This document shows, piece after piece, positions 34,633 through 48,074 of a stretch of 53,725 nt of DNA. The notes beneath the pieces are model-generated. The model was not told the origin of the DNA, made no database searches, and saw only the letters and a list, made by a program, of their open reading frames with translations. The stretch covers positions 1-53,725 of IMG/VR virus record IMGVR_UViG_3300027972_000015, one strand, 5' to 3'. Position 1 is the first letter of the stretch, and each line of letters begins with the position of its first letter. A program made the translations under genes and the position numbers. The stretch comes from a virus.

Positions 34633-34855
34633 GCGGCTCGCGGCGCTCGGGCAGGTCGAGGACTTGCGGGAGAAGCTGGCCGCCCCCGCGCTGGCCGACG
34701 AAGAGAAGTACGCGCGCATCGGCCGCATGGTCGTCCAGCTCGTGAAGGACTACGACCTGAACAGGCTGGTTGTGCAACTGCCACACCCGTCGCCGATGTG
34801 CCCGTGCGCGGAATGCCAGGGGCGTTTTGACAACCTAGGGAAGGGAAAGCCATGA
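34547..34855 (+). CDS. Helical protein lacking a good start (frameshift partner)
   Basis: The frame carries a long helix (ATLRAALRKSEAERLAALGQ) and a Cys pair near the end (CPCAEC). No ATG or GTG is available after the upstream gene degenerates; TTG 34547 is the only nearby candidate and has no usable ribosome site. Fusion to the preceding gene by +1 frameshift, programmed or a sequence error, is plausible. The end overlaps the next ATG. Confidence 0.5.
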   Translation: MCARCSARPKAEAHTVATLRAALRKSEAERLAALGQVEDLREKLAAPALADEEKYARIGRMVVQLVKDYDLNRLVVQLPHPSPMCPCAECQGRFDNLGKGKP

Positions 34856-36408
34856 ACGCCAAGATAGAGTCCCCCGCGCTTGCCGTCGAGCCGCTGAGCG
34901 TAGCCGAGATCGCGCAGATTGCCACCGAGGCGCGTAGAGTAGGCACGTGCACGGCAGAGGGGATTGGATTGTGCGTCGCCGAACGCCAGCGAGCGAAGGT
35001 CCGCCCCGCGCCGCTGCCGACGGTTGATTCGCTGGCGAAGGTGCTCCTGCCAATCATCACGTCGGCACCATCTGGTGAGACGTGCGCGGTAGAGTGCGCC
35101 CGCGCCGTCCTCGCCCACCTCGGCGCGCAGCCGGCGGCAAGCGAAGGCTATGACTGGGCCGAACGGGCGGCGCTGCTCGGGGCGCAGGTTGCGCGCCTGA
35201 CCCGCGAGAATTCCGAGCTTGCGGAGCGAGCCGCAGAGGCGCAGCTTCGCTTCCGCACCGAGGAGAGCCGGCACGCTGAGACACGAGAGCGCCTGACCCG
35301 CGAGCGTGACGAGGTGGCACACATGGTGGTTCATCATGAGAAGCGCAAGCAACTTGAGTTCGGATTACGCGAGCTTGGCATCGGGAGGCGCGGCTCCCCG
35401 GAAGACGACGCTCTGACCACGATCCGCGAGCAGCGCGCGAAGCTCGACGAGCAGGCTCGGACGTTGAGCGAGCAGGCGGCCGAGATCGCGCGGCTCAAGG
35501 ATGCCCCGCGGTTTGTCAAGGATGCCCCGCGGTTTGTCGGTTCGGCTGAACTCGCGGCCGCCAGAAGTGAGTCCGTCCCGCAAGCGCCGCCCGCCGAGGC
35601 GTGCTCCAACTGCGACGGCCGAGGCGAGGTCGCCATCGATCGCGTCGGCGACGGGCCGGAGGGCAGGCAGGCGCAGTGCCCGAAGTGCAAGCCCGCCGAG
35701 GCGCCGATGCCGAGGCTGGAGAGCGAGACCCGCAACTGGGCGATGGACGAAGACCCGTGTGGAGAGGCGGGGAAGACTGTCGCTGACATGATCTTGCGGG
35801 CCGCCAGCGCCGACATGGCCGACGCCGTGAAGGCTGCCGTAGAGACGTGCGCCAAAGGGTTCGCGGTGCTGCGGGAGCGTGACACGCTGGAGATCAAGCA
35901 GATGCGCGAGGTCATCGTCTGGCGCGAAGCGGATCGGGAGGCGGACGCGAGACGGATTGCCAAGTTGGAGCAGGAACTTGAGGCTGCGCTGACGGCTGCC
36001 GATAGGAACGGCGAGGCGCGCGACGCCGCCCGCCGCCAGGCCGAGGAGAACGCGCAGGAATGCGAGAGACTGCGTGGAGCGCTATCCGAGGCAAAGTACG
36101 ACCGCGACAACGCAGCCAAGCTGGCCGAGGAGTCGAGCAAGCGCATCGTGGAGCTCGAGGAGAGCTACTCGGCCGCGAAGGAGTCTATCAATGGGCTGCG
36201 CGAGGCGCGCGACAACTGGCATCGCCAGGCCGAGGAGAACGCGCAGGCCGCGCGGGAACTGGCCGAGCTGCGGAAGCTGGCGCCCAGGTTCATTCTCGGT
36301 CTGCGTGCTGAGGGCGAGCGATCTGACTACGAAAGAATCCAGTCGCTTCTCGACCAGCCGGAGGTGAAGCCGGGCGACGCTGAACAGAAGAACGAAGGAG
36401 GAAAGTGA
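34852..36408 (+). CDS. Large coiled-coil protein with central zinc knuckle
   Basis: This 518-residue protein is mostly coiled coil (about residues 110-215 and 320-490; Ala, Glu, Arg and Leu heptads). A zinc knuckle, CSNCDGRG with CPKCK, interrupts it at about residues 250-282. A perfect 21-base tandem duplication adds two KDAPRFV copies before the knuckle, and the RQAEENAQ heptad occurs twice. It resembles SMC/Rad50-style rods without ATPase heads, so it may be a scaffold or decoy. It is followed by two related smaller genes at 37568 and 37975. Confidence 0.65.
   Translation: MNAKIESPALAVEPLSVAEIAQIATEARRVGTCTAEGIGLCVAERQRAKVRPAPLPTVDSLAKVLLPIITSAPSGETCAVECARAVLAHLGAQPAASEGYDWAERAALLGAQVARLTRENSELAERAAEAQLRFRTEESRHAETRERLTRERDEVAHMVVHHEKRKQLEFGLRELGIGRRGSPEDDALTTIREQRAKLDEQARTLSEQAAEIARLKDAPRFVKDAPRFVGSAELAAARSESVPQAPPAEACSNCDGRGEVAIDRVGDGPEGRQAQCPKCKPAEAPMPRLESETRNWAMDEDPCGEAGKTVADMILRAASADMADAVKAAVETCAKGFAVLRERDTLEIKQMREVIVWREADREADARRIAKLEQELEAALTAADRNGEARDAARRQAEENAQECERLRGALSEAKYDRDNAAKLAEESSKRIVELEESYSAAKESINGLREARDNWHRQAEENAQAARELAELRKLAPRFILGLRAEGERSDYERIQSLLDQPEVKPGDAEQKNEGGK
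35497..35538 (+). repeat. 21-bp perfect tandem duplication, in frame
   Basis: Bases 35497-35517 and 35518-35538 are identical, giving two KDAPRFV heptapeptides in the coiled-coil protein. A further 25-base identity occurs between 36034-36058 and 36223-36247 in the same gene. Confidence 0.85.
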
Positions 36409-38544: not shown

Positions 38545-39023
38545 ACGACGACCGTGGCGGGCGGCTAACGAGCCTCTTGCGGTCAAGCGCGCCGCGTGCC
38601 ATCCTGGTGACAGCGCGTATGATAGCGACCGTGGACATAGCAAGTAACGGAGTCGGGCATGCCCGGCGGCTTGCTAGTACAGCGCCGATTTCTCGGCGTC
38701 GAGGCGTGGATGCCGGCTCAACCCTCTCTGCCATCCAACGTTCGCACGGTCCCGCGCTGACACAGCTCATCGGTAGCCGCTTCGGTGGCCCGACCAGGCG
38801 ACCCACCCCCTGCCTATGAGCAACTGACGCTAGGACCCTGGCGAAGACGGAGCCAGTACCCAGATCCGGAAGAGGGGAACTTGGCGTCTTCCACCAATCG
38901 CCCACGTTATGGGCAGGGTTGCGTTAGCGCGGTTTTGGTTGACTTGGCGGAGACGGCGTGCCAGGGTGTCAAGTAGAGGTTCACGCGCGCGGGCGTATGG
39001 GCCGAGAGCAAAGGTTTCGAATC
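38545..39023. other. Non-coding stretch rich in perfect hairpins
   Basis: No convincing gene is seen; a GTG frame 38541-38819 and a minus frame 38513-38905 both have unnatural composition. Perfect stems are dense: AGCAAG/CTTGCT (38639-38644 with 38670-38675) around the palindrome CGGGCATGCCCG (38654-38665), CGCCGA-TTTC-TCGGCG (38683-38698), GGTGG/CCACC (38784-38788 with 38803-38807), CTGGC/GCCAG (38838-38842 with 38852-38856), GGAAGA/TCTTCC (38868-38873 with 38887-38892) and GCCCA/TGGGC (38900-38914). A sizeable structured RNA is plausible. Confidence 0.45.
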
Positions 39024-39344
39024 ATGAGCAGCGAGAGCGACAAGGCGGCTCGAATTACAGCGAAGGGGCTTCGGATCATCGACCAGATGCTCGACGTCCT
39101 TGAGAAGGTTCCATACGACGATTGGTCGAAGACGCACGTGAGGGACGTCAGCGATTGCGTCATGGCGGCGGTGAAGGTGCAGGCTGAGGAGCGGGCGCAG
39201 CTCGAATTCGAAGAAGGCGCCAAGCTGTCCCCTGAGGACATCCGCGCGTTGCTCAAGGAATACCTAGCCGCTCTGCCACAGGCAGAATACGCGGCACTTG
39301 TCGCGGAGGCCCGCGCAGCGCAACCATCAGAGGTGCGCGCGTGA
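39024..39344 (+). CDS. Small helical protein, possible terminase small subunit
   Basis: The 106-residue product from ATG 39024 is helical and acidic (ARITAKGLRIIDQMLDVLEK, then a Pro-Glu-Asp-capped helix). Size, fold and place upstream of the packaging block would suit a small terminase, but no helix-turn-helix motif is clear and the large subunit is 5 kb away. Confidence 0.4.
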   Translation: MSSESDKAARITAKGLRIIDQMLDVLEKVPYDDWSKTHVRDVSDCVMAAVKVQAEERAQLEFEEGAKLSPEDIRALLKEYLAALPQAEYAALVAEARAAQPSEVRA

Positions 39345-39348
39345 CACG

Positions 39349-40071
39349 ATGCTGGTAGCGCTGCAGTACTGGCGAGGAGACGAGGCCGAGGCGCTGAGCC
39401 TGGCCCGGCTGATTGCCGATATCGAGCCGAAGGAACGAGAGGACGTCGTGCTGGTCCTGGCACGAGCGTTTGACTGTCCGTTGTCACCGGAAGCCGAGGC
39501 CACTCAAAAGCACTGCTCGGCGAAGCTGCGGACGATGCTCCTGCAGTCCCATGTGGAGCGCGTCGGCCACCCGTCGGGCTGCTACGGCGTTTGGGCTGGG
39601 ACGGTGGGCCGGCTCTATCAGCTCTGGTCGTCGGGCATGATCGACTCGCGCCACGACTCGGTGGCCACGTTTGAGGCGGACGGCTGCCCCGTTCGGTCCG
39701 ACTGGCTCGACCGGCTGCAGGCCGCTCACGGTCGCACGCTGACCCAGGGGCTACGCGTGACCGGCGCCGTGATGGACGAGCCCATCCCGCACGTCAACGG
39801 CAATCTTGTCATGCACCTGAGTGTCTGGGGCGACCGCCCGTCCCTGCGCGATTCCATCCATAACGTCGCGTGGGACATCCAGCATGCTCGCGTGCTGATT
39901 CCGCTCACGCGTCCGTGTGGCGTCATCCGCAATGAGTACGAGACGCGCGACTGGACCGAGGGCTGTCTCGCAGGCATTGCTCGCGAGGCCGCGTGGGTGC
40001 ACGGGTGCAAGGACGATTCGATTTTGCGCATCGTCAGAGGATGGATGCGCGGGAAGTGGAGGCGCGATTGA
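39349..40071 (+). CDS. Putative GT-A type glycosyltransferase
   Basis: The 240-residue product from ATG 39349 has an N-terminal LSLARLIADIEPKEREDVVL segment, a GCYGVWAGTVGRLYQLW helix and the acidic site SVATFEADGCPVRSDWL (residues about 104-120), with E-A-D-G where GT-A enzymes carry their metal-binding D-x-D. Later parts (YETRDWTEGC and onwards) are less diagnostic. It runs directly into the large glycan-modifying gene, so the two likely work on the same sugar chain. Confidence 0.6.
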   Translation: MLVALQYWRGDEAEALSLARLIADIEPKEREDVVLVLARAFDCPLSPEAEATQKHCSAKLRTMLLQSHVERVGHPSGCYGVWAGTVGRLYQLWSSGMIDSRHDSVATFEADGCPVRSDWLDRLQAAHGRTLTQGLRVTGAVMDEPIPHVNGNLVMHLSVWGDRPSLRDSIHNVAWDIQHARVLIPLTRPCGVIRNEYETRDWTEGCLAGIAREAAWVHGCKDDSILRIVRGWMRGKWRRD

Positions 40072-42152
40072 TCTCCGACCTGTTCCTGCGCACCTACCGC
40101 GGCGACTACCAGTGGCTGCCGTACCTGTTCCGCTCGCTGAATCGACACGCCAGCGGCTGGCGGAAGTTGATCGTGGTCGTGCCCGTCGGGCAGGAGGCGG
40201 ACTTCCCCGTGCTGCCCGAGCTGGACGCGCCCGAATTCTGCGAGGCGGTCGAGTTCGCGACCTGCCCAGTCTACGCGAACGACTACATCGGCCAGCAGAT
40301 CACCAAGCTGCGCGCGTGGGAGCTGAGCGACGCAGACGCCATCGGCTACCTCGACTCAGACATGGTCTTCACGCGTCCATTCGATGCCAGGGCGCTGCCG
40401 ACCTCGGGCATGGGCGCTCACCCCGACGGCGTCGGCGCAAGGCCTTGGAGCGAAGCTGGTGAGGCCAAGGATGCATGGTATGAGTCGACCCGCGACCTGC
40501 TGGGATTTGAGCCGACACACGAGACGATGTGCCGGCATCCGTTCGTCTACCGCCGAGAGACCATCCAGGGATGCTACGAGCACGTAGTCGGCGAGGATGG
40601 CCTGCTCGAATACGGCCGTTGCTTCTCCGAGTTCAACTTGCTTGGGAACTACGCCATACACAATGGCGCCGCGACATACACCCCGGCCGGGCCCGAGCTG
40701 CAGCGCCAGTTCCGCAGCTACGATGGCCTGACCGTGGATACGTTGCAGTGGCTGGCTGTCAACGGCTACGACTCGCACGTGCCAGCCGAGAAGCTCGACG
40801 GGCAAGGGGGCATCTGGACGATCGCGGCCGACTCCACCGTCAGCCGTTGGGACCGCGAGACCGGGCGCTTGGACCACGACCAGAACGCATTGCCTCGCAT
40901 CCTGGACGCGTTCCGTGGCCGGCCGGTGGTCTGGGACGTCGGCGCCCTCATCGGCGACCACTCGCGATCGTACGCAGACGCGGGCCACCGCGTGGTTGCC
41001 ATCGAGCCGCAGCCAATGGCGTTTGAGTGCTTGGCGCGCAACTTCGCCGGCAACGACCGCGTCACATGCCTGCATCTAGCCGCCGGTGCCAGCGAGCAAG
41101 TGACGCTCGCCTCTCCCGACGAACAGAACGCGGGTGCGCGGTTCCTCACGCAGGTCGCCGGCGGGCACGAGACGGTGCTGCTGGACGACCTGACCCGCGT
41201 CTACTCGGCGCCCGACGCGATCAAGCTCGACGTCGAGGGGTGGGAGGTCAAGGCCCTGCGCGGAGCATCGGCCATCCTGGCGAGCGTCCGCCCGGTCATG
41301 GTGATCGAGGTCAACCGCGGGGCGCTGGTCCGCGCTGGCGACTCGCCCGAAGCTTTGCACGAGCTGCTGACCTGGTGCGGGTACCGCATGCGCGACCTGT
41401 ACACCAACGAGCCGTGGCTGGCCGGGGACACGCGCGAGCAGTTCGATATCGTGGCCAAGCCGATTCGCCACGTCGGCGGTAACGGCAGCAAGCCCAAGCT
41501 GCGCATCCTGCACAACCTAGCCCGTTCGGGCGGCACCATCGTGTCCCGCTGTCTGGCGTGTATGGACGGCGTCGCGCTGCTGTCCGAGGTCCACCCGACG
41601 TTCTGGCAAGGCTGGAACGACCCTGTCTTGCAGGCGCGGAAGTGGTACGGCGTCCATGTCCCCGACGATCTGGACTTCGTCGACACGATCGCCGCGCTGG
41701 AGGAAGCGTTCCGGGCCCGCGGGCAGATGCTGGTGCTGCGCTCGTGGGACTTCGTCGACTTCATCCCGAGTTCGAAGAACCGAAAGCCGGCCGGGCGGTC
41801 GCAGCTGACCGAGTCGTTGCGGGAACGGTTTGAGCTGGTGGAGTCGGCGCTCCTGCGCGGGGCAACCGAGGCGCATGCATCGGTAGAGCGATTCCTTGGC
41901 GAACGCGTCGATCAGGCCGCGTTTGTCGAGGGCGCGTGGGCGTTCTCGTCGCAGCCGTGGTCCGCCGTTGATTACGAGGTGCTGTGCCACGACCCACAGG
42001 TATTCATGGCTGAGTTGTGCCGACAGCTTGATCTGCCGCTCGACCCGGCATGGGCCACCAAGTGGCAGTCCTACGTCAACGTCACCGGCGACGTTGCAAA
42101 CCAACTCGAACGGGTCCACATTGGAAGAAAGGAAACACCGCATGCCGAGTGA
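40041..42152 (+). CDS. Fused glycosyltransferase / FkbM methyltransferase / sulfotransferase-like protein
   Basis: This 703-residue protein starts at ATG 40041; TTG 40068, in a TTGA overlap with the preceding stop, is an alternative. Three domains can be read. Residues about 10-280 are a DUF6492-like glycosyltransferase (FLRTYRGDYQWLPYLFRSLN, then YLDSDMVF with D-S-D at 105-107). Residues about 296-475 are an FkbM-type AdoMet methyltransferase (VVWDVGALIGDHSRSYADAG, VVAIEPQP, and IKLDVEGWEVKALRGA at 394-409). Residues about 487-700 resemble a sulfotransferase (LRILHNLARSGGTIVSRCL, a P-loop-like PAPS site). The fusion should build and cap a glycan in one polypeptide. The third domain is the least certain. 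Confidence 0.75.
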   Translation: MDAREVEARLISDLFLRTYRGDYQWLPYLFRSLNRHASGWRKLIVVVPVGQEADFPVLPELDAPEFCEAVEFATCPVYANDYIGQQITKLRAWELSDADAIGYLDSDMVFTRPFDARALPTSGMGAHPDGVGARPWSEAGEAKDAWYESTRDLLGFEPTHETMCRHPFVYRRETIQGCYEHVVGEDGLLEYGRCFSEFNLLGNYAIHNGAATYTPAGPELQRQFRSYDGLTVDTLQWLAVNGYDSHVPAEKLDGQGGIWTIAADSTVSRWDRETGRLDHDQNALPRILDAFRGRPVVWDVGALIGDHSRSYADAGHRVVAIEPQPMAFECLARNFAGNDRVTCLHLAAGASEQVTLASPDEQNAGARFLTQVAGGHETVLLDDLTRVYSAPDAIKLDVEGWEVKALRGASAILASVRPVMVIEVNRGALVRAGDSPEALHELLTWCGYRMRDLYTNEPWLAGDTREQFDIVAKPIRHVGGNGSKPKLRILHNLARSGGTIVSRCLACMDGVALLSEVHPTFWQGWNDPVLQARKWYGVHVPDDLDFVDTIAALEEAFRARGQMLVLRSWDFVDFIPSSKNRKPAGRSQLTESLRERFELVESALLRGATEAHASVERFLGERVDQAAFVEGAWAFSSQPWSAVDYEVLCHDPQVFMAELCRQLDLPLDPAWATKWQSYVNVTGDVANQLERVHIGRKETPHAE

Positions 42153-42363
42153 TGACCGCAGCCGACCAACCAGCGACGAGTACCGCGACGGGTGGGAGCG
42201 GACGTTTGGGCGACCGGGCCGAAGGCTTGGCAAGCACTGGCTCGATGGCAGGTGCGAGTCGTGCGGGCACAAGCACAGCGGCAAATGCGGTGAGCCCGTG
42301 GGCGACGGCTGCGACGACGACGACCGCCCGATCTGGAAGACGTGCGATTGCGAGGGCAAATGA
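42142..42363 (+). CDS. Small Cys-rich acidic protein
   Basis: The 73-residue product from ATG 42142, after GAAAGGAAA, overlaps the large enzyme's end by 11 bases. It has CESCGHKH, CGEP, CDDD and CDC elements, consistent with zinc binding. No family is recognised. Confidence 0.5.
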   Translation: MPSDDRSRPTSDEYRDGWERTFGRPGRRLGKHWLDGRCESCGHKHSGKCGEPVGDGCDDDDRPIWKTCDCEGK

Positions 42364-42782
42364 AAGTCGCACACATCGACTGCAAGACCTGCGGCGGCAA
42401 GGTCAAGATCGTCCGCAAGAAGTGCGCCGAGATTCCCGGGCACGTCGAGATGATCGCCAACTGTCACGGGATGTGGCACGTTGACATCGTGTCTAAGAAG
42501 GCCACCGCTCCTCGACTTGTTCCGTTCTTCCGCATGGCCGAGCGGATGCCGAAGGACATGGCCGAGGCAAGGCGCGTCTATGGGCCACCGCCCGGCAAGC
42601 CTGGTTCGCAAATCGTTTCTGTGGAGGTCCGCCACTCAAGCGATCTGGAATGGGTCGTAGACGAACTAGATCGGGACGGAGGCTGGATTGCCCAGCAGGT
42701 GTTCACCGACGAGCAGAAGGCAGAGTCGTGCGCAAGCCAGCGCCGCCAGGACATCCTCACGCTCAAAGTGTGGGAGTCATGA
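42360..42782 (+). CDS. Zinc-ribbon-start protein
   Basis: The 140-residue product from ATG 42360 opens KVAHIDCKTCGGKVKIVRKK, then has further Cys and a WHVDIV strand, an N-terminal zinc ribbon. The C-terminal half is alpha/beta (HSSDLEWVVDELDRDGGW). No family is recognised. Confidence 0.55.
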   Translation: MKVAHIDCKTCGGKVKIVRKKCAEIPGHVEMIANCHGMWHVDIVSKKATAPRLVPFFRMAERMPKDMAEARRVYGPPPGKPGSQIVSVEVRHSSDLEWVVDELDRDGGWIAQQVFTDEQKAESCASQRRQDILTLKVWES

Positions 42783-43210
42783 GCGACTTCGCCATCCGCG
42801 CCGCGACCCGCGCCGACGAGCCATTCATCTACAAGGCCTGGCTTCGCGGGTACTGGGACCACTTCCCGGCGCGAGCGATCGTGTCTGAGTCCGAGTTCTT
42901 CGAGCGCTGGCACCGCGTGATCGAGCGCATCTTGGCCGACAAGCGGACAATCACGGTCGTCGCGCACGTCGAGGGCGAACCGGATTCGTTGCTTGGGTTC
43001 GCGTGCGCGAACAGCGACTGCGTCCACTGGGCATACGTAAAGCAGGCTTTTCGCAAGCTCGGCATTGCCCACGCTATGCTGAATCGCATCGTGTTCAAGG
43101 GTTCACGCGGGCGAGAGACTCCGTGCGGGTGGCCCGCGATCAGCCACTGGCCCGGCCCCGTCGATGGCTGGACGTACGCGCCGCAACTACTGAGGGAGTA
43201 CGCAGAATGA
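42779..43210 (+). CDS. GNAT-like acetyltransferase
   Basis: The 143-residue product opens FAIRAATRADEPFIYKAWLR, the usual GNAT start strand and helix. It continues with TVVAHVEGEPDSLLGFACAN as the beta-strand pair and VHWAYVKQAFRKLGIAHAML as the acetyl-CoA-binding V-x-x-x-x-R-x-x-G-I region. Similar phage proteins are annotated as N-acetyltransferases. The acceptor is unknown; with the glycan enzymes upstream, an amino-sugar is possible. Confidence 0.65.
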   Translation: MSDFAIRAATRADEPFIYKAWLRGYWDHFPARAIVSESEFFERWHRVIERILADKRTITVVAHVEGEPDSLLGFACANSDCVHWAYVKQAFRKLGIAHAMLNRIVFKGSRGRETPCGWPAISHWPGPVDGWTYAPQLLREYAE

Positions 43211-43742: not shown

Positions 43743-44092
43743 ACATCAAGTCGGTCCGATTCCCGTCGCCCGTCGCCGTCGTGAAGGGAGAACTCCACAC
43801 CGAGTGGATGCCAGGCAAGCGCGGAGTGCGGGAGATTCATGTCTGGAGCGACACCACATTGCTATTCGTGATGGACGGCGTAGGCAACCTGCTCGCGCAG
43901 ATTCTGCCAGGCACGGTGATCGCCGTCGACATGCCGGACACGACTGGGCAAACGTTCGTGGAAGCCAAGGTGACAGCCACGCCATTGCCACCGCCGGCAG
44001 ATAAGGCACCCGATGGACACGCAAGCAGCACGCCTAGCAAGGACCCTCCGCCAGCTCGCCCAATCCCGAAGAGCGGCCGAGTTCAGCGCTGA
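43739..44092 (+). CDS. Hypothetical protein overlapping terminase
   Basis: The 117-residue product from ATG 43739 is beta-rich for 90 residues and then Pro/Ser-rich. Its last 80 bases overlap the start of the large terminase in another frame. It may be a packaging accessory or unrelated. Confidence 0.5.
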   Translation: MNIKSVRFPSPVAVVKGELHTEWMPGKRGVREIHVWSDTTLLFVMDGVGNLLAQILPGTVIAVDMPDTTGQTFVEAKVTATPLPPPADKAPDGHASSTPSKDPPPARPIPKSGRVQR

Positions 44093-45506
44093 GGCTTGCT
44101 GCTTCCTAGAGCAGCTTGCGGCGTGCCGTAGCCCACGGAAGCGCAAGGTTTTGCGCTGCGGTCGTCGTGCGGGCAAGACGCGGCTGATTGCGATCGCGCT
44201 GCTTGAAGCCGCCTTGCAGCTCCCGGCGGTGCCGGTTCTTTACGTCACGTTGACCAGGGGGAACGCGAAGGAAATCCTCTGGGACGAGTTGCTGTCAGTC
44301 CACGACGAATACAAGCTAGGATTCAGGGTCCGCGAGGGCGCGCTTGAATTGATCAGCCCGCTGGGCATCAAGATCCAGCTTCGCGGCGCCCACACGAAGC
44401 GGGAGATCGCCAAGTACCGCGGGAAGAAGTTCAAGCTGGTCATCCTTGACGAGGCGCAGTCGTTCCCCAACAGCGTGCTTGAACCGCTGGTCCGGGATGT
44501 CATCATGCCGACCCTGCTCGACTACGAGGGCACGCTATGGCTTGCTGGCACGCGCCCACCACTGCGGAAGGGATACTTCTGGGAGTGCTTCGACGGCAAG
44601 CTAAAGGACAGATACGAGCTGCACTCGTGGACGGTCAAGGAGAACACGAAGCTTCCAGCCAGGGCGGCCGGCAAATCGATAGAGGACATCCTCGCCGAGT
44701 TTCGCAAGGACAACGGCTGGACGGAGTCGGACAAGACATACCGCCGCGAGATTCTCGATCAGGATGTCGAAGATCGCGAAGCGCTGCTCTATGAGTACCT
44801 CGACACACGCAACGGGTACACGCAGCTCCCCCAGTCGCCAGCGTGGCACTACGCTTTGGCGTGGGACCTTGGCATAGGCGGCGACGAGGAGAAGCCGGAG
44901 CAAGAGGGCGGCACCATGTACCTCTGCATTTTGGGCTGGCCCGAGCACGATCGGCGCGTGTTCCTGGTCGACGAATGGAGCGGCAACAAGAGCGGAGACG
45001 CTAAGAGCGACATCACGGACACGGCGGCTGAGGCCCACAGGCTGATCGAGAAGTATCGGCCAGAGCGCTACGTGCTCGACTACGGGGGCCTAGGCAAGCT
45101 CATCGCCGCAGAGATTCGGCAGCGGCATCATATCCCGGTCAAGGCGGCCGAGAAGAGCCAGAAGGGCGCCTTCATCGCGCTGTTCAACACGGCCATGCGC
45201 AAGGGCGAGTTTTTCGCGCGAGCCGACTCGGTGTTTGCGCAGGAGTGCGCGTTGGTGAAAAAGGACTTCGAAGCGCTGGCCAACGGCGGGAAGCTCCAGG
45301 AGCTCCCTCCGCGCAAGGGCGGGTTCCACGGCAACGCAACCGACGGCGTGCTCTACGGCTGGCGCGAGTGCCGGGCGTGGATGGAGCAGCTGCCGCCCGA
45401 ACGCCCGGAGGGCTACCGCGAGCCCACCGAGACGATGAAGCGCGCCCTGGCCGAGCAGAAGCGAGCGAATGGCAAAGACCCGCTTGACCTGCTCATGGGG
45501 TTCTGA
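44013..45506 (+). CDS. terL: Terminase large subunit
   Basis: The 497-residue packaging motor has Walker A CGRRAGKT at 49-56, Walker B LVILDEAQ at 142-149 with catalytic Glu, and a C-terminal RNase-H-like nuclease with metal-binding Asp candidates in WDLG (285), VLDYGG (356) and ATDGVLYG (444). The enzyme pumps DNA into the prohead and cuts the concatemer. It is followed by a regulatory dyad and promoter and then the portal operon. ATG 44013 lies 10 bases after an AAGG site. Confidence 0.95.
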   Translation: MDTQAARLARTLRQLAQSRRAAEFSAEACCFLEQLAACRSPRKRKVLRCGRRAGKTRLIAIALLEAALQLPAVPVLYVTLTRGNAKEILWDELLSVHDEYKLGFRVREGALELISPLGIKIQLRGAHTKREIAKYRGKKFKLVILDEAQSFPNSVLEPLVRDVIMPTLLDYEGTLWLAGTRPPLRKGYFWECFDGKLKDRYELHSWTVKENTKLPARAAGKSIEDILAEFRKDNGWTESDKTYRREILDQDVEDREALLYEYLDTRNGYTQLPQSPAWHYALAWDLGIGGDEEKPEQEGGTMYLCILGWPEHDRRVFLVDEWSGNKSGDAKSDITDTAAEAHRLIEKYRPERYVLDYGGLGKLIAAEIRQRHHIPVKAAEKSQKGAFIALFNTAMRKGEFFARADSVFAQECALVKKDFEALANGGKLQELPPRKGGFHGNATDGVLYGWRECRAWMEQLPPERPEGYREPTETMKRALAEQKRANGKDPLDLLMGF

Positions 45507-45512
45507 CGGACA

Positions 45513-45530
45513 TTTCTGTCACGACAGAAA
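45513..45530. promoter_or_regulatory. 8-bp inverted repeat (operator candidate)
   Basis: TTTCTGTC-AC-GACAGAAA is a perfect dyad between the terminase stop and the portal-operon promoter, ending eight bases before the -35 box. The short two-base centre suits a dimeric DNA-binding protein better than an RNA hairpin. Confidence 0.6.
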
Positions 45531-45538
45531 CACCAGGC

Positions 45539-45569
45539 TTGACGGTGCTTTCGGTTCGTGCCATGTATA
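45539..45569 (+). promoter_or_regulatory. Portal-operon promoter with TTTCGGTT element
   Basis: TTGACG (45539) is followed after four bases by TTTCGGTT and then CATGTATA (45562-45569). The first 18 bases follow the same pattern as the promoter at 24419. The start of transcription would fall at or within a few bases of ATG 45574, which has no ribosome site, implying a leaderless message. Confidence 0.55.
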
Positions 45570-45573
45570 GAGT

Positions 45574-45864
45574 ATGCGGACCGGTCAACTGCGGAGCCTC
45601 CTCAAGGAGCTGCGGGCCGGTGGCGTGTCCGAGTACTCCTCGACGAAGCGCGGCGAGACGGTAACGCTCAAGCTTGCCGGCCCGTTCGTGCCGTCGGTTT
45701 CAGCCTCGGCGAAGAGGGCTCCCGCAAAGGCCGCCGCGCCCTTCCCGCCGATTTCCAGCGAGCTGCGCAAGCAGCTGGAGAACTTGGGCGTAGACGCTGA
45801 TCAGGCCCACGAGGTCCTGCGCGATGTCGGCATTGCCGCTGGGGTAGCCGATGGCCTCGACTAG
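45574..45864 (+). CDS. Small protein opening the portal operon
   Basis: The 96-residue product begins MRTGQLRSLLKELRAGGVSE and is basic then Pro/Ala-rich and acidic. Short proteins of this kind often lie just before the portal gene in podovirus genomes. The start is apparently leaderless. The end overlaps the next gene by 14 bases. Confidence 0.6.
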   Translation: MRTGQLRSLLKELRAGGVSEYSSTKRGETVTLKLAGPFVPSVSASAKRAPAKAAAPFPPISSELRKQLENLGVDADQAHEVLRDVGIAAGVADGLD

Positions 45865-46084
45865 GGCAATCGCTGTCGTCGGCAAGCTGGGCGCCGTCTG
45901 CGACGAACAGGCCTACGTCAAGCGCTACGATCGCGCGTCCATCGTGGTCGAGGTCGAGATTCCATGGGACTCGGCTTTGCAATGCGGGCTGGTCTACCGC
46001 GACGATTCTCACCACGGCGCGAAGACGGACATGCTTCCGGGTCAGCGCTGCACTCTGACGCTTGAGGTGCCGAATGGCGGCTAA
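45851..46084 (+). CDS. Small beta-rich protein before portal
   Basis: The 77-residue product from ATG 45851 is beta-rich (RASIVVEVEIPWDSALQC). Its end overlaps the portal start by 11 bases, indicating translational coupling. No family is recognised. Confidence 0.55.
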   Translation: MASTRAIAVVGKLGAVCDEQAYVKRYDRASIVVEVEIPWDSALQCGLVYRDDSHHGAKTDMLPGQRCTLTLEVPNGG

Positions 46085-48074
46085 GCGCAGCCTCGTCAAG
46101 CGCGGGGTCGCTCGGCTCCCCCACCGCATCTCGACGATGGGCAGCGCGGCCGACGTCGCCGACAACAATGGGCGCTGGTGGGAGAACGCTGGTGACGCCG
46201 GGGTGGCCCAGGCTCGCGCGCTGCTGACCACGCTGCACAGCCTGCACGGGCAGCGGCGGCTCTACGACGACCTCTACACTGGCCTGTACGAAGCGCAGCC
46301 GCCATTCTGGCTGATTCAGATGCGGGCCGGGGCGCCGATCGTCCAGGCCGCGTCGATCATGAATTCGTACACGAAGGCGCGAGCGAACATCATTCGTCGC
46401 TGCGTGGACACCGCCGCCGCGATGCTGGCCAAGAATCCAGCCGAGATTCGCTGCCAGACTGACGGTGCCTCGTGGAAGCTGCAGCGGAGGGCCCGGCAGC
46501 AGACCAAGTACATCAACGGCCTGCTCCGCGAGTGCGGGTTTCACGAGGCGCAACAGCGCTGCTTCATCGACGCGTGCCTTACCCGCGCCGGCGGGCTTGT
46601 GAAGATGTGGATTGACCGCAAAAACAAGCGGATTCGCTGCGATCGTGTCCACCCCGGCGCCTTTCTCTGGAACGACTACGAGTCGCCGCCGCTGCGCAAC
46701 GCGGGCCTGCGCTACCTGGAATCGAAGAGCGTCTTGATGGACCGCCACCCAGAACTGGCCGCGCAGATTCGCACAGCTCCGCACGGGACCAACCCGCAAC
46801 TCACGCACATCTACCGCCGCATGTTCGGCAACGAGCTGATGGCCGACCAGGTCGAGGTCAGCGAGATGTGGCACCTCACCGAGGACGCCGAGAAGCCGGG
46901 CCGGCACATCATGGCTCTGCCCAACGTCACGCTTGAGGATGAGCCCTGGGAGTTCGATTTCTTCCCGATTCCGCGGCTTTTCTGGGCCGAGGCCGACCGC
47001 GGCTCGTGCAACTCGCCGGTGGCCGAGCAGCTCGTCGGCTACCACACGCAGATCGGCGAGATGATGCTCGCCATCTCGAAGAGCCAGCGCCTCGCGTGCG
47101 TCCCTCGCGTCTACATCGAGAAGGGCAGCGATATCGTCGAGGACGAGATCACCAACGCGATCGGTGGGGTCGTCCACTACACCGGCACGCCTCCGACGAT
47201 CGCCACCTCGCAGGCGATGCCGCCCGAGTTCTACCAGTACTTGAACCAGCTCGTCGCGTGGGCGATGGCCGACACCGGGCTGAACGAATTCCAGGCCCAG
47301 GGCACGCTGCCGATGGGCATGCAGGACGCTTCCGGGCGAGCTCTCCGCGAAATGAACGACACGGGCAGCACGCGCCAGGTGCTCAAGGGTCAGCGCATTG
47401 AGCGGCACACGATCAGCGCCGGTGAAATGGGCTTCCGCATGTCGGCGAAGCTGGCCAAGGAAAGCCCGGACTTCGCGATCAACGCCCTTGGCGCCCGCAG
47501 CTTTGAGCGCATCAAGTGGTCTGAGGTCGAGGGCGACATCCGCGATATCCGCATGGTGACAACGCCGACGAGCATGCTCGGCTCGACGACGAGCGGCCGC
47601 ATTCAAAACGTCGTGGATATCATCAAGGGCGGATTGCTCCCGCCCGACGAGGTCAACGGCGGGCTCGGCCTCAAGCTGCTTGCCTTCCCAGATTTGGAGA
47701 AGGTCGTCACGATGGAGACGGCCATTCGCGAGCTGATCGAGATGATGGTCGACGGGGCGCTCTACGACGGCGACTACTTCGCGCCTGAGCCGTATCTTGG
47801 TCCGCAGGGGTTGACGCTGCTCAAGACGATGGCGTGTCGGACCTACTTCCACGCGTTGCAAATGGACGGCGTGCCAGCGAAGAACCTGGACATGCTTCGT
47901 CGCCTCATGAGCGAAGCGGACTTTCTCACGCAGAACTTCGCGGCCAAACAGGCGCCGATTCAGCAGCCGCAGGCCAATGTGCCAGCGCCCGCGCCGGCCC
48001 CGCTGCAGCAGTCCCCGCTGGCTCCGCCTCCGATGCCCGAGATGCCCATGCCGGGCGGGGGGCAGCCGCAATGA
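46074..48074 (+). CDS. Portal protein
   Basis: This 666-residue protein from ATG 46074 (TTG 46062 is an alternative) has long helical and beta segments, with LYDDLYTGLYEAQPPFWLIQ near residue 70 and a C-terminal Pro/Gln-rich tail (APAPAPLQQSPLAPPPMPEM). Size, place after terminase and before scaffold and capsid, and a central YQYLNQLVAWAMADTGLNEF segment fit a podovirus-type portal, the dodecameric ring for DNA entry. The call is from synteny and length more than from a single motif. Confidence 0.8.
   Translation: MAAKRSLVKRGVARLPHRISTMGSAADVADNNGRWWENAGDAGVAQARALLTTLHSLHGQRRLYDDLYTGLYEAQPPFWLIQMRAGAPIVQAASIMNSYTKARANIIRRCVDTAAAMLAKNPAEIRCQTDGASWKLQRRARQQTKYINGLLRECGFHEAQQRCFIDACLTRAGGLVKMWIDRKNKRIRCDRVHPGAFLWNDYESPPLRNAGLRYLESKSVLMDRHPELAAQIRTAPHGTNPQLTHIYRRMFGNELMADQVEVSEMWHLTEDAEKPGRHIMALPNVTLEDEPWEFDFFPIPRLFWAEADRGSCNSPVAEQLVGYHTQIGEMMLAISKSQRLACVPRVYIEKGSDIVEDEITNAIGGVVHYTGTPPTIATSQAMPPEFYQYLNQLVAWAMADTGLNEFQAQGTLPMGMQDASGRALREMNDTGSTRQVLKGQRIERHTISAGEMGFRMSAKLAKESPDFAINALGARSFERIKWSEVEGDIRDIRMVTTPTSMLGSTTSGRIQNVVDIIKGGLLPPDEVNGGLGLKLLAFPDLEKVVTMETAIRELIEMMVDGALYDGDYFAPEPYLGPQGLTLLKTMACRTYFHALQMDGVPAKNLDMLRRLMSEADFLTQNFAAKQAPIQQPQANVPAPAPAPLQQSPLAPPPMPEMPMPGGGQPQ

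Follow-up and report, generated by a model that had tools for sequence, protein, structure and literature searches.

A single open reading frame on a viral contig encodes a protein of three enzyme domains: first a DUF6492-type glycosyltransferase (GT), next an FkbM methyltransferase, and last a divergent P-loop sulfotransferase (ST). The contig, hereafter the window, is the whole 53,725-nucleotide stretch of IMG/VR record IMGVR_UViG_3300027972_000015. From sequence comparison we consider it likely that this ORF is a genuine multi-transferase, formed when three modules of a phage glycan cassette with predicted activities were fused in frame. The cassette comprises four modules—an upstream glycosyltransferase gene (GTu), GT, FkbM, and ST. 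The initial annotation of this DNA recognized the fusion, which stands, but overlooked both GTu, just upstream, and the relatives in which the modules are separate genes. Homology establishes the identities of the fused domains; catalytic activity, reaction order, and target are inferred.

Gene structure and domain content

The features of the locus are as follows; residue numbers throughout count from ATG 40041, the 703-aa version of the protein.

38958 to 39344, plus strand: conserved gene bordering the cassette on its upstream side, 37% identical to L010:5248-5712
39349 to 40071, plus strand: GTu, first cassette gene, GT-A fold glycosyltransferase (E-A-D motif; AlphaFold, Foldseek)
40041 to 42152, plus strand: fused GT-FkbM-ST ORF, 703 aa from ATG 40041 (open frame, Pfam, third-position GC)
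40058 to 40070, plus strand: GGAGG (40058-40062), probably the ribosome-binding site, followed by the probable TTG start (40068-40070), which shares bases with the GTu stop and gives 694 aa
40068 to 40775, plus strand: GT domain, DUF6492-like (Pfam PF20102), residues 10-245, D-S-D at 105-107, with stand-alone relatives in other phages
40803 to 41468, plus strand: FkbM domain, residues 255-476, AdoMet motif from 296 (Pfam, NCBIfam, PDB 2py6)
41490 to 42149, plus strand: predicted ST domain, residues 484-703, with GGT (497-499), R606, and S614 at PAPS-binding positions (tblastn, alignment, profiles)
42342 to 42782, plus strand: conserved gene bordering the cassette on its downstream side, 81% identical to L010:9756
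44013 to 45506, plus strand: terminase large subunit, 1.9 kb downstream (PHROGs 2.1e-25; Pfam Terminase_6N)

The stop-to-stop frame around the fused ORF spans 738 codons with no internal stops. Because third-position GC stays high (0.67-0.94) across this frame and both joints, we read the ORF as one coding sequence. The initial annotation placed a 703-residue product here; the open frame is as described, but ATG 40041 is probably too early, and translation more likely begins at TTG 40068, for a protein of 694 aa rather than 703 aa. TTG 40068 is preferred because GGAGG ends five bases before it, because it overlaps the GTu stop codon (TGA, 40069-40071), and because the N-termini of unfused GT relatives align at this position. 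GTu and the fused ORF are probably translationally coupled.

Pfam recovers FkbM (7.3e-15, residues 299-450) and DUF6492 (2.8e-5, residues 17-176) in the 703-aa protein, both over their curated cut-offs, and Sulfotransfer_3 (0.022, residues 635-669) below its own. The DUF6492 score is 23.8 bits for the full protein and 27.2 bits for the domain, against a cut-off of 22.9. We take D105-S106-D107 to be the donor-type DxD motif of GT-A-like enzymes; its serine and second aspartate are invariant in 7/7 aligned sequences, and the first aspartate is glutamate in L010, the nearest syntenic relative of the window. A profile of the GT domain found no match among solved structures. GTu (in an alignment of 10 members) has no family in Pfam or NCBIfam, and its AlphaFold model (pLDDT 89.6) matches GT-A enzymes, e.g., LgtC and CHSY3, at E about 1e-6 in Foldseek; the model shows a GT-A fold, and GTu is the second glycosyltransferase of the cassette. 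The copy of GTu in L010 is 69% identical, and comparison of the GTu and GT-domain profiles detected no similarity between them. A GT relative in Eleftheria adjoins a polysaccharide pyruvyl transferase gene.

The FkbM domain lies over the cut-off in both Pfam (55.9 against 22.7 bits) and NCBIfam (86.9 against 37.7, E 1.7e-24), and its profile matches an FkbM structure, 2py6, in the PDB at 3.4e-10. Alignment with five relatives places VVWDVGALIGD at 296-306, the acidic residue in VAIEP within 319-325, and IKLDVEGWE at 394-403. The first of these is the AdoMet motif.

The ST domain alone falls below the Sulfotransfer_3 cut-off (19.7 against 27 bits), and three of five phage ST members match that family at E up to 1. 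A tblastn search of plasmids recovered seven records, each covering at least 80% of the domain; E was 2e-7 or better for five of them, 3e-5 for one, and 0.04 for another. The bacterial relatives are annotated sulfotransferases, about 24-30% identical over more than 90% of the domain, on plasmids of the Roseobacteraceae Leisingera, Salipiger, Sulfitobacter, and Thalassovita. Four of them were aligned; all four sit in capsule/LPS loci with, for example, gmd, GDP-fucose synthase, or glycosyltransferases, and three are over a Pfam sulfotransferase cut-off. Across the resulting nine-sequence alignment, GGT and R606 are invariant (9/9) and the serine at S614 is kept in eight; we take the GGT loop to be the 5'-PSB and the Arg...Ser pair to mark the 3'-PSB positions for PAPS. 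The 3'-PAPS motif of the bacterial proteins, RHPxDxxxS, is reduced in the phages and reads RGATEAHAS in the window. Profile-profile comparison in hhalign of the five phage with the four bacterial sequences gave 99.2%, and the nine-sequence profile matches the CurM sulfotransferase structure (1.1e-6) over the C-terminal part only; PCNA and other chains matched by the same profile were taken as chance. The AlphaFold model of the domain is of low confidence (mean pLDDT 54.7), and a fold search of solved structures with it returned none at Z of at least 2. The alignments and profiles point to the third domain being a divergent PAPS sulfotransferase. The Pfam and NCBIfam matches, the D-S-D motif, and the homology to bacterial sulfotransferases thus bear out the initial reading of one protein fusing GT, FkbM, and ST in that order, and the D-S-D, AdoMet, and P-loop GGT motifs are where that reading had put them.

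The cassette in other viral contigs

Since whole-protein search of viral contigs gave FkbM-only relatives, IMG/VR was searched domain by domain, and HMMs of the four modules were then run over the fetched loci, which extend no more than 8 kb from a match. At least one module is present in 32 contigs, including the window and the FkbM-only L002, leaving 30 others with cassette parts. Duplicates of contigs already counted (L048, L051, L052, L054, and L059) were merged; L006, L007, L012, L014, L039, L040, and loci L020-L031 were left out of the HMM scan as repeats; and L003, a separate contig with the same FkbM protein as L002, was also left out. L042-L045 look by score like near-copies of one another, as do L046, L047, and L049, and because near-identical contigs are included, the counts below do not represent independent events.

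All four modules occur in five of the 32 contigs: the window, L004, L005, L011, and L017. In the latter four they are separate genes, ordered GT-FkbM-GT-GTu-ST in L004 and L005 and GTu-FkbM-GT-ST in L011 and L017. The initial annotation suggested a sequence search for the domain order of the fused protein; among these viral contigs, GT-FkbM-ST in one frame is found in the window only (1/32). Other joins do exist. GTu and GT share one frame in L046:666-2165, L047:7248-8747, L049:6939-8747, and L063:6675-8603, and a Nucleotid_trans domain precedes GTu in one frame in L015:3-1556, L016:2572-4203, and L018:2698-4107. Further, GT is followed directly by a separate FkbM gene in L056, L060, and L062, an arrangement that likely represents the pre-fusion state. 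Because these other joins and separate-gene versions exist, the window fusion is most plausibly one outcome among several for modules that appear often to rearrange and fuse. Two frames look broken or frameshifted relative to their relatives: L005:5079-5531 (FkbM, short) and L050:6873-7989 (GTu).

Among isolated phages, whole-protein search gave 23 matching records, every one over the FkbM part only, and searches with ST alone, GT alone, and GTu gave no match. Two scans of bacterial and archaeal genomes with short exact patterns yielded no confirmed relative, which is weak evidence of absence.

Genomic context

The cassette occurs beside head genes in two lineages. L011 and L017 have as neighbors genes for a terminase, a portal protein, head morphogenesis, a head maturation protease, and a major capsid protein; used as queries, head genes of this type were found in 15/32 loci, and in every locus with a portal gene as well as a head-morphogenesis gene, the cassette sits between the two (9/9). 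In six of the 15 loci of this second lineage the cassette and the head genes are on opposite strands, so that co-expression with head genes is not general. In all seven window-lineage loci (the window, L010, and L041-L045; 7/32), the cassette precedes a terminase of a different type that is encoded on its own strand. The other 10/32 loci hold none of these head or terminase markers, or a weak terminase match only (L009). A tblastn search of 50,697 phage records with the terminase and portal-like protein of the window (44013-48074) gave no match, and the window lineage therefore looks uncultivated.

Four genes flanking the cassette in L010 share 37%, 81%, 62%, and 62% identity with their window counterparts. 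In place of the fusion, L010 carries GT as a separate gene, a STELLO-like protein that scores under the Pfam cut-off, a protein without a Pfam family, and an FkbM remnant (L010:8681-9139), which is without the AdoMet motif region and occupies the same position as the window fusion. Comparison of the two sequences shows exchange of cassette content directly, and since L010 keeps only a remnant of FkbM, decay also happens at this locus. An 81-aa ORF lies near the cassette in both L010 (9381-9626) and L004 (4179-4424), 74% identical across the two lineages, which hints at transfer of the region between them. Elsewhere in the window, a 518-aa coiled-coil-like protein (34852-36408) matches L010 (34%) and L004 (43%), possibly through low-complexity similarity. 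A conserved protein at 42650-43210, 62% identical to its counterpart in L010, has no family in NCBIfam; by eye we take its product to resemble a GNAT acetyltransferase.

A search of the window for tyrosine integrase or resolvase families found none, and lysogenic conversion is accordingly not favored. Among the 15 records searched, only that of L056 has an integrase.

Predicted function and target

In the mechanism that we propose, GTu and the GT domain would add sugars, the latter from a nucleotide-sugar donor; the FkbM domain would O-methylate the sugar just added, with AdoMet from the host; and the ST domain would sulfate the sugar with host-supplied PAPS. Fusion would hold the three activities at a constant ratio to one another as they work on a single short glycan. 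The most likely target appears to be a virion head protein, a reading to which we give somewhat less than an even chance. It is favored because two lineages whose terminases differ both carry the cassette next to head genes, and because a search of the window found no integrase or resolvase family. As a tentative proposal, considerably less secure than the fusion itself, an exchangeable cassette of two glycosyltransferases, FkbM, and ST beside the head genes may decorate phage heads with a sulfated, methylated glycan, with the window holding a compact form in which three of the four activities are on one chain.

It is also possible, if doubtful, that the same enzyme instead acts during infection on a glycan of the host surface (LPS, capsule, or exopolysaccharide), thereby keeping superinfecting phages or released progeny from binding the infected cell or its debris. 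The host surface is the next option after the virion head, kept alive by the strand-independence of the cassette, which behaves like an inserted module, and by the ST relatives in bacterial capsule/LPS loci. The Eleftheria GT relative beside a polysaccharide pyruvyl transferase gene also fits, as does the variation in cassette content between syntenic phages, which receptor or antigen variation would predict. Yet the position beside head genes is conserved, no integrase or resolvase family that would indicate lysogenic conversion was found in the window, and an unsystematic look identified no flippase or membrane anchor in the cassette. Modification of DNA bases with sugar, methyl, and sulfate groups against restriction seems very improbable. 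Nucleotide modification based on glycosyl- and sulfotransferases is reported in phages in the available excerpts of a survey (PMC10829341), but the ST relatives belong to polysaccharide loci, and a thymidylate-synthase-like gene was found in none of six records, the window included (control positive in 9/14). Tet/JBP was likewise found in none of the six, a result that says little, given a control that was positive nowhere.

Two further explanations concern the fused protein itself. One of its domains, most likely ST, might no longer work and serve only in binding or scaffolding; the divergence of ST, the reduction of its 3'-PAPS motif, and the reduction of FkbM to a remnant at this position in L010 are all consistent with such a loss. 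We nevertheless regard it as unlikely: the frame is undamaged, the ST proteins of four other phages are 55-57% identical to the window domain over its length, and the GGT, R, and S positions are kept. That the fusion is an artifact of assembly or sequencing would explain why it occurs on a single metagenomic contig, with no second copy among the viral contigs searched. Such an error would, however, have to create two joins and a gene order that none of the four separate-gene contigs shows, for which one lost stop codon is insufficient; the linkers are short and in frame, and third-position GC is even. An artifact is accordingly most improbable, and a lost stop codon is rejected as the event that produced the fusion, since gene order also differs from the separate-gene contigs.

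If decoration of the virion head is correct, phage-encoded enzymes would be producing a sulfated glycan on the virion. The enzyme set, linked to a head-gene locus, adds sulfate to the glycan modifications that phages may make themselves. The fused protein offers a handy single construct for testing the glycosyl, methyl, and sulfate steps in series, and its unfused relatives are natural controls.

Comparison with known systems

Each part of the fused protein has recognizable kin. The capsule/LPS sulfotransferases of Roseobacteraceae are homologous to the ST domain and belong to the Sulfotransfer_3 family; they differ in being stand-alone proteins of about 310 aa with an N-terminal extension and a canonical R(H/D)P.D motif. 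The middle domain is over both curated cut-offs of the FkbM family (PF05050, TIGR01444) and differs from it in sitting between GT and ST. The available parts of two surveys (PMC10829341, PMC8290583) count sulfotransferases as accessory genes of phages. Glycosyltransferases of mycobacteriophages Che8, Corndog, and Myrna act on capsid and tail proteins (PMC12363180); as excerpted, that system shares phage-encoded glycosyltransferases with the cassette, a likeness of description, and is described with no fused methyl- or sulfotransferase.

The initial annotation knew of no phage enzyme described with this domain order. No report of a GT-FkbM-ST protein was found in the open-licence PMC literature, as represented by the available parts of its papers (including PMC8290583, PMC5537653, PMC13390465, and PMC10829341), but there is a close viral precedent. 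A064R of chlorovirus PBCV-1, a GT-GT-methyltransferase of 638 aa, builds the end of the capsid glycan, according to excerpts of PMC9614988. As described there, A064R resembles the window protein in being viral, of similar length, and composed of three transferase domains in series with an N-terminal glycosyltransferase; its methyltransferase also acts on the sugar just added, as we propose for the window FkbM domain. Unlike the window protein, it has two glycosyltransferases before its methyltransferase, belongs to a virus of eukaryotic algae, and, in the same excerpts, has no sulfotransferase; we liken the two by description and claim no homology. A three-domain viral glycan enzyme and the glycosylation of phage capsids and tails are thus known, and GT-FkbM-ST is unreported in the literature searched, as far as its excerpts extend. 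Set beside the glycosylation described in the available portions of the phage papers, the window and its relatives suggest a concrete enzyme set for more elaborate phage glycans.
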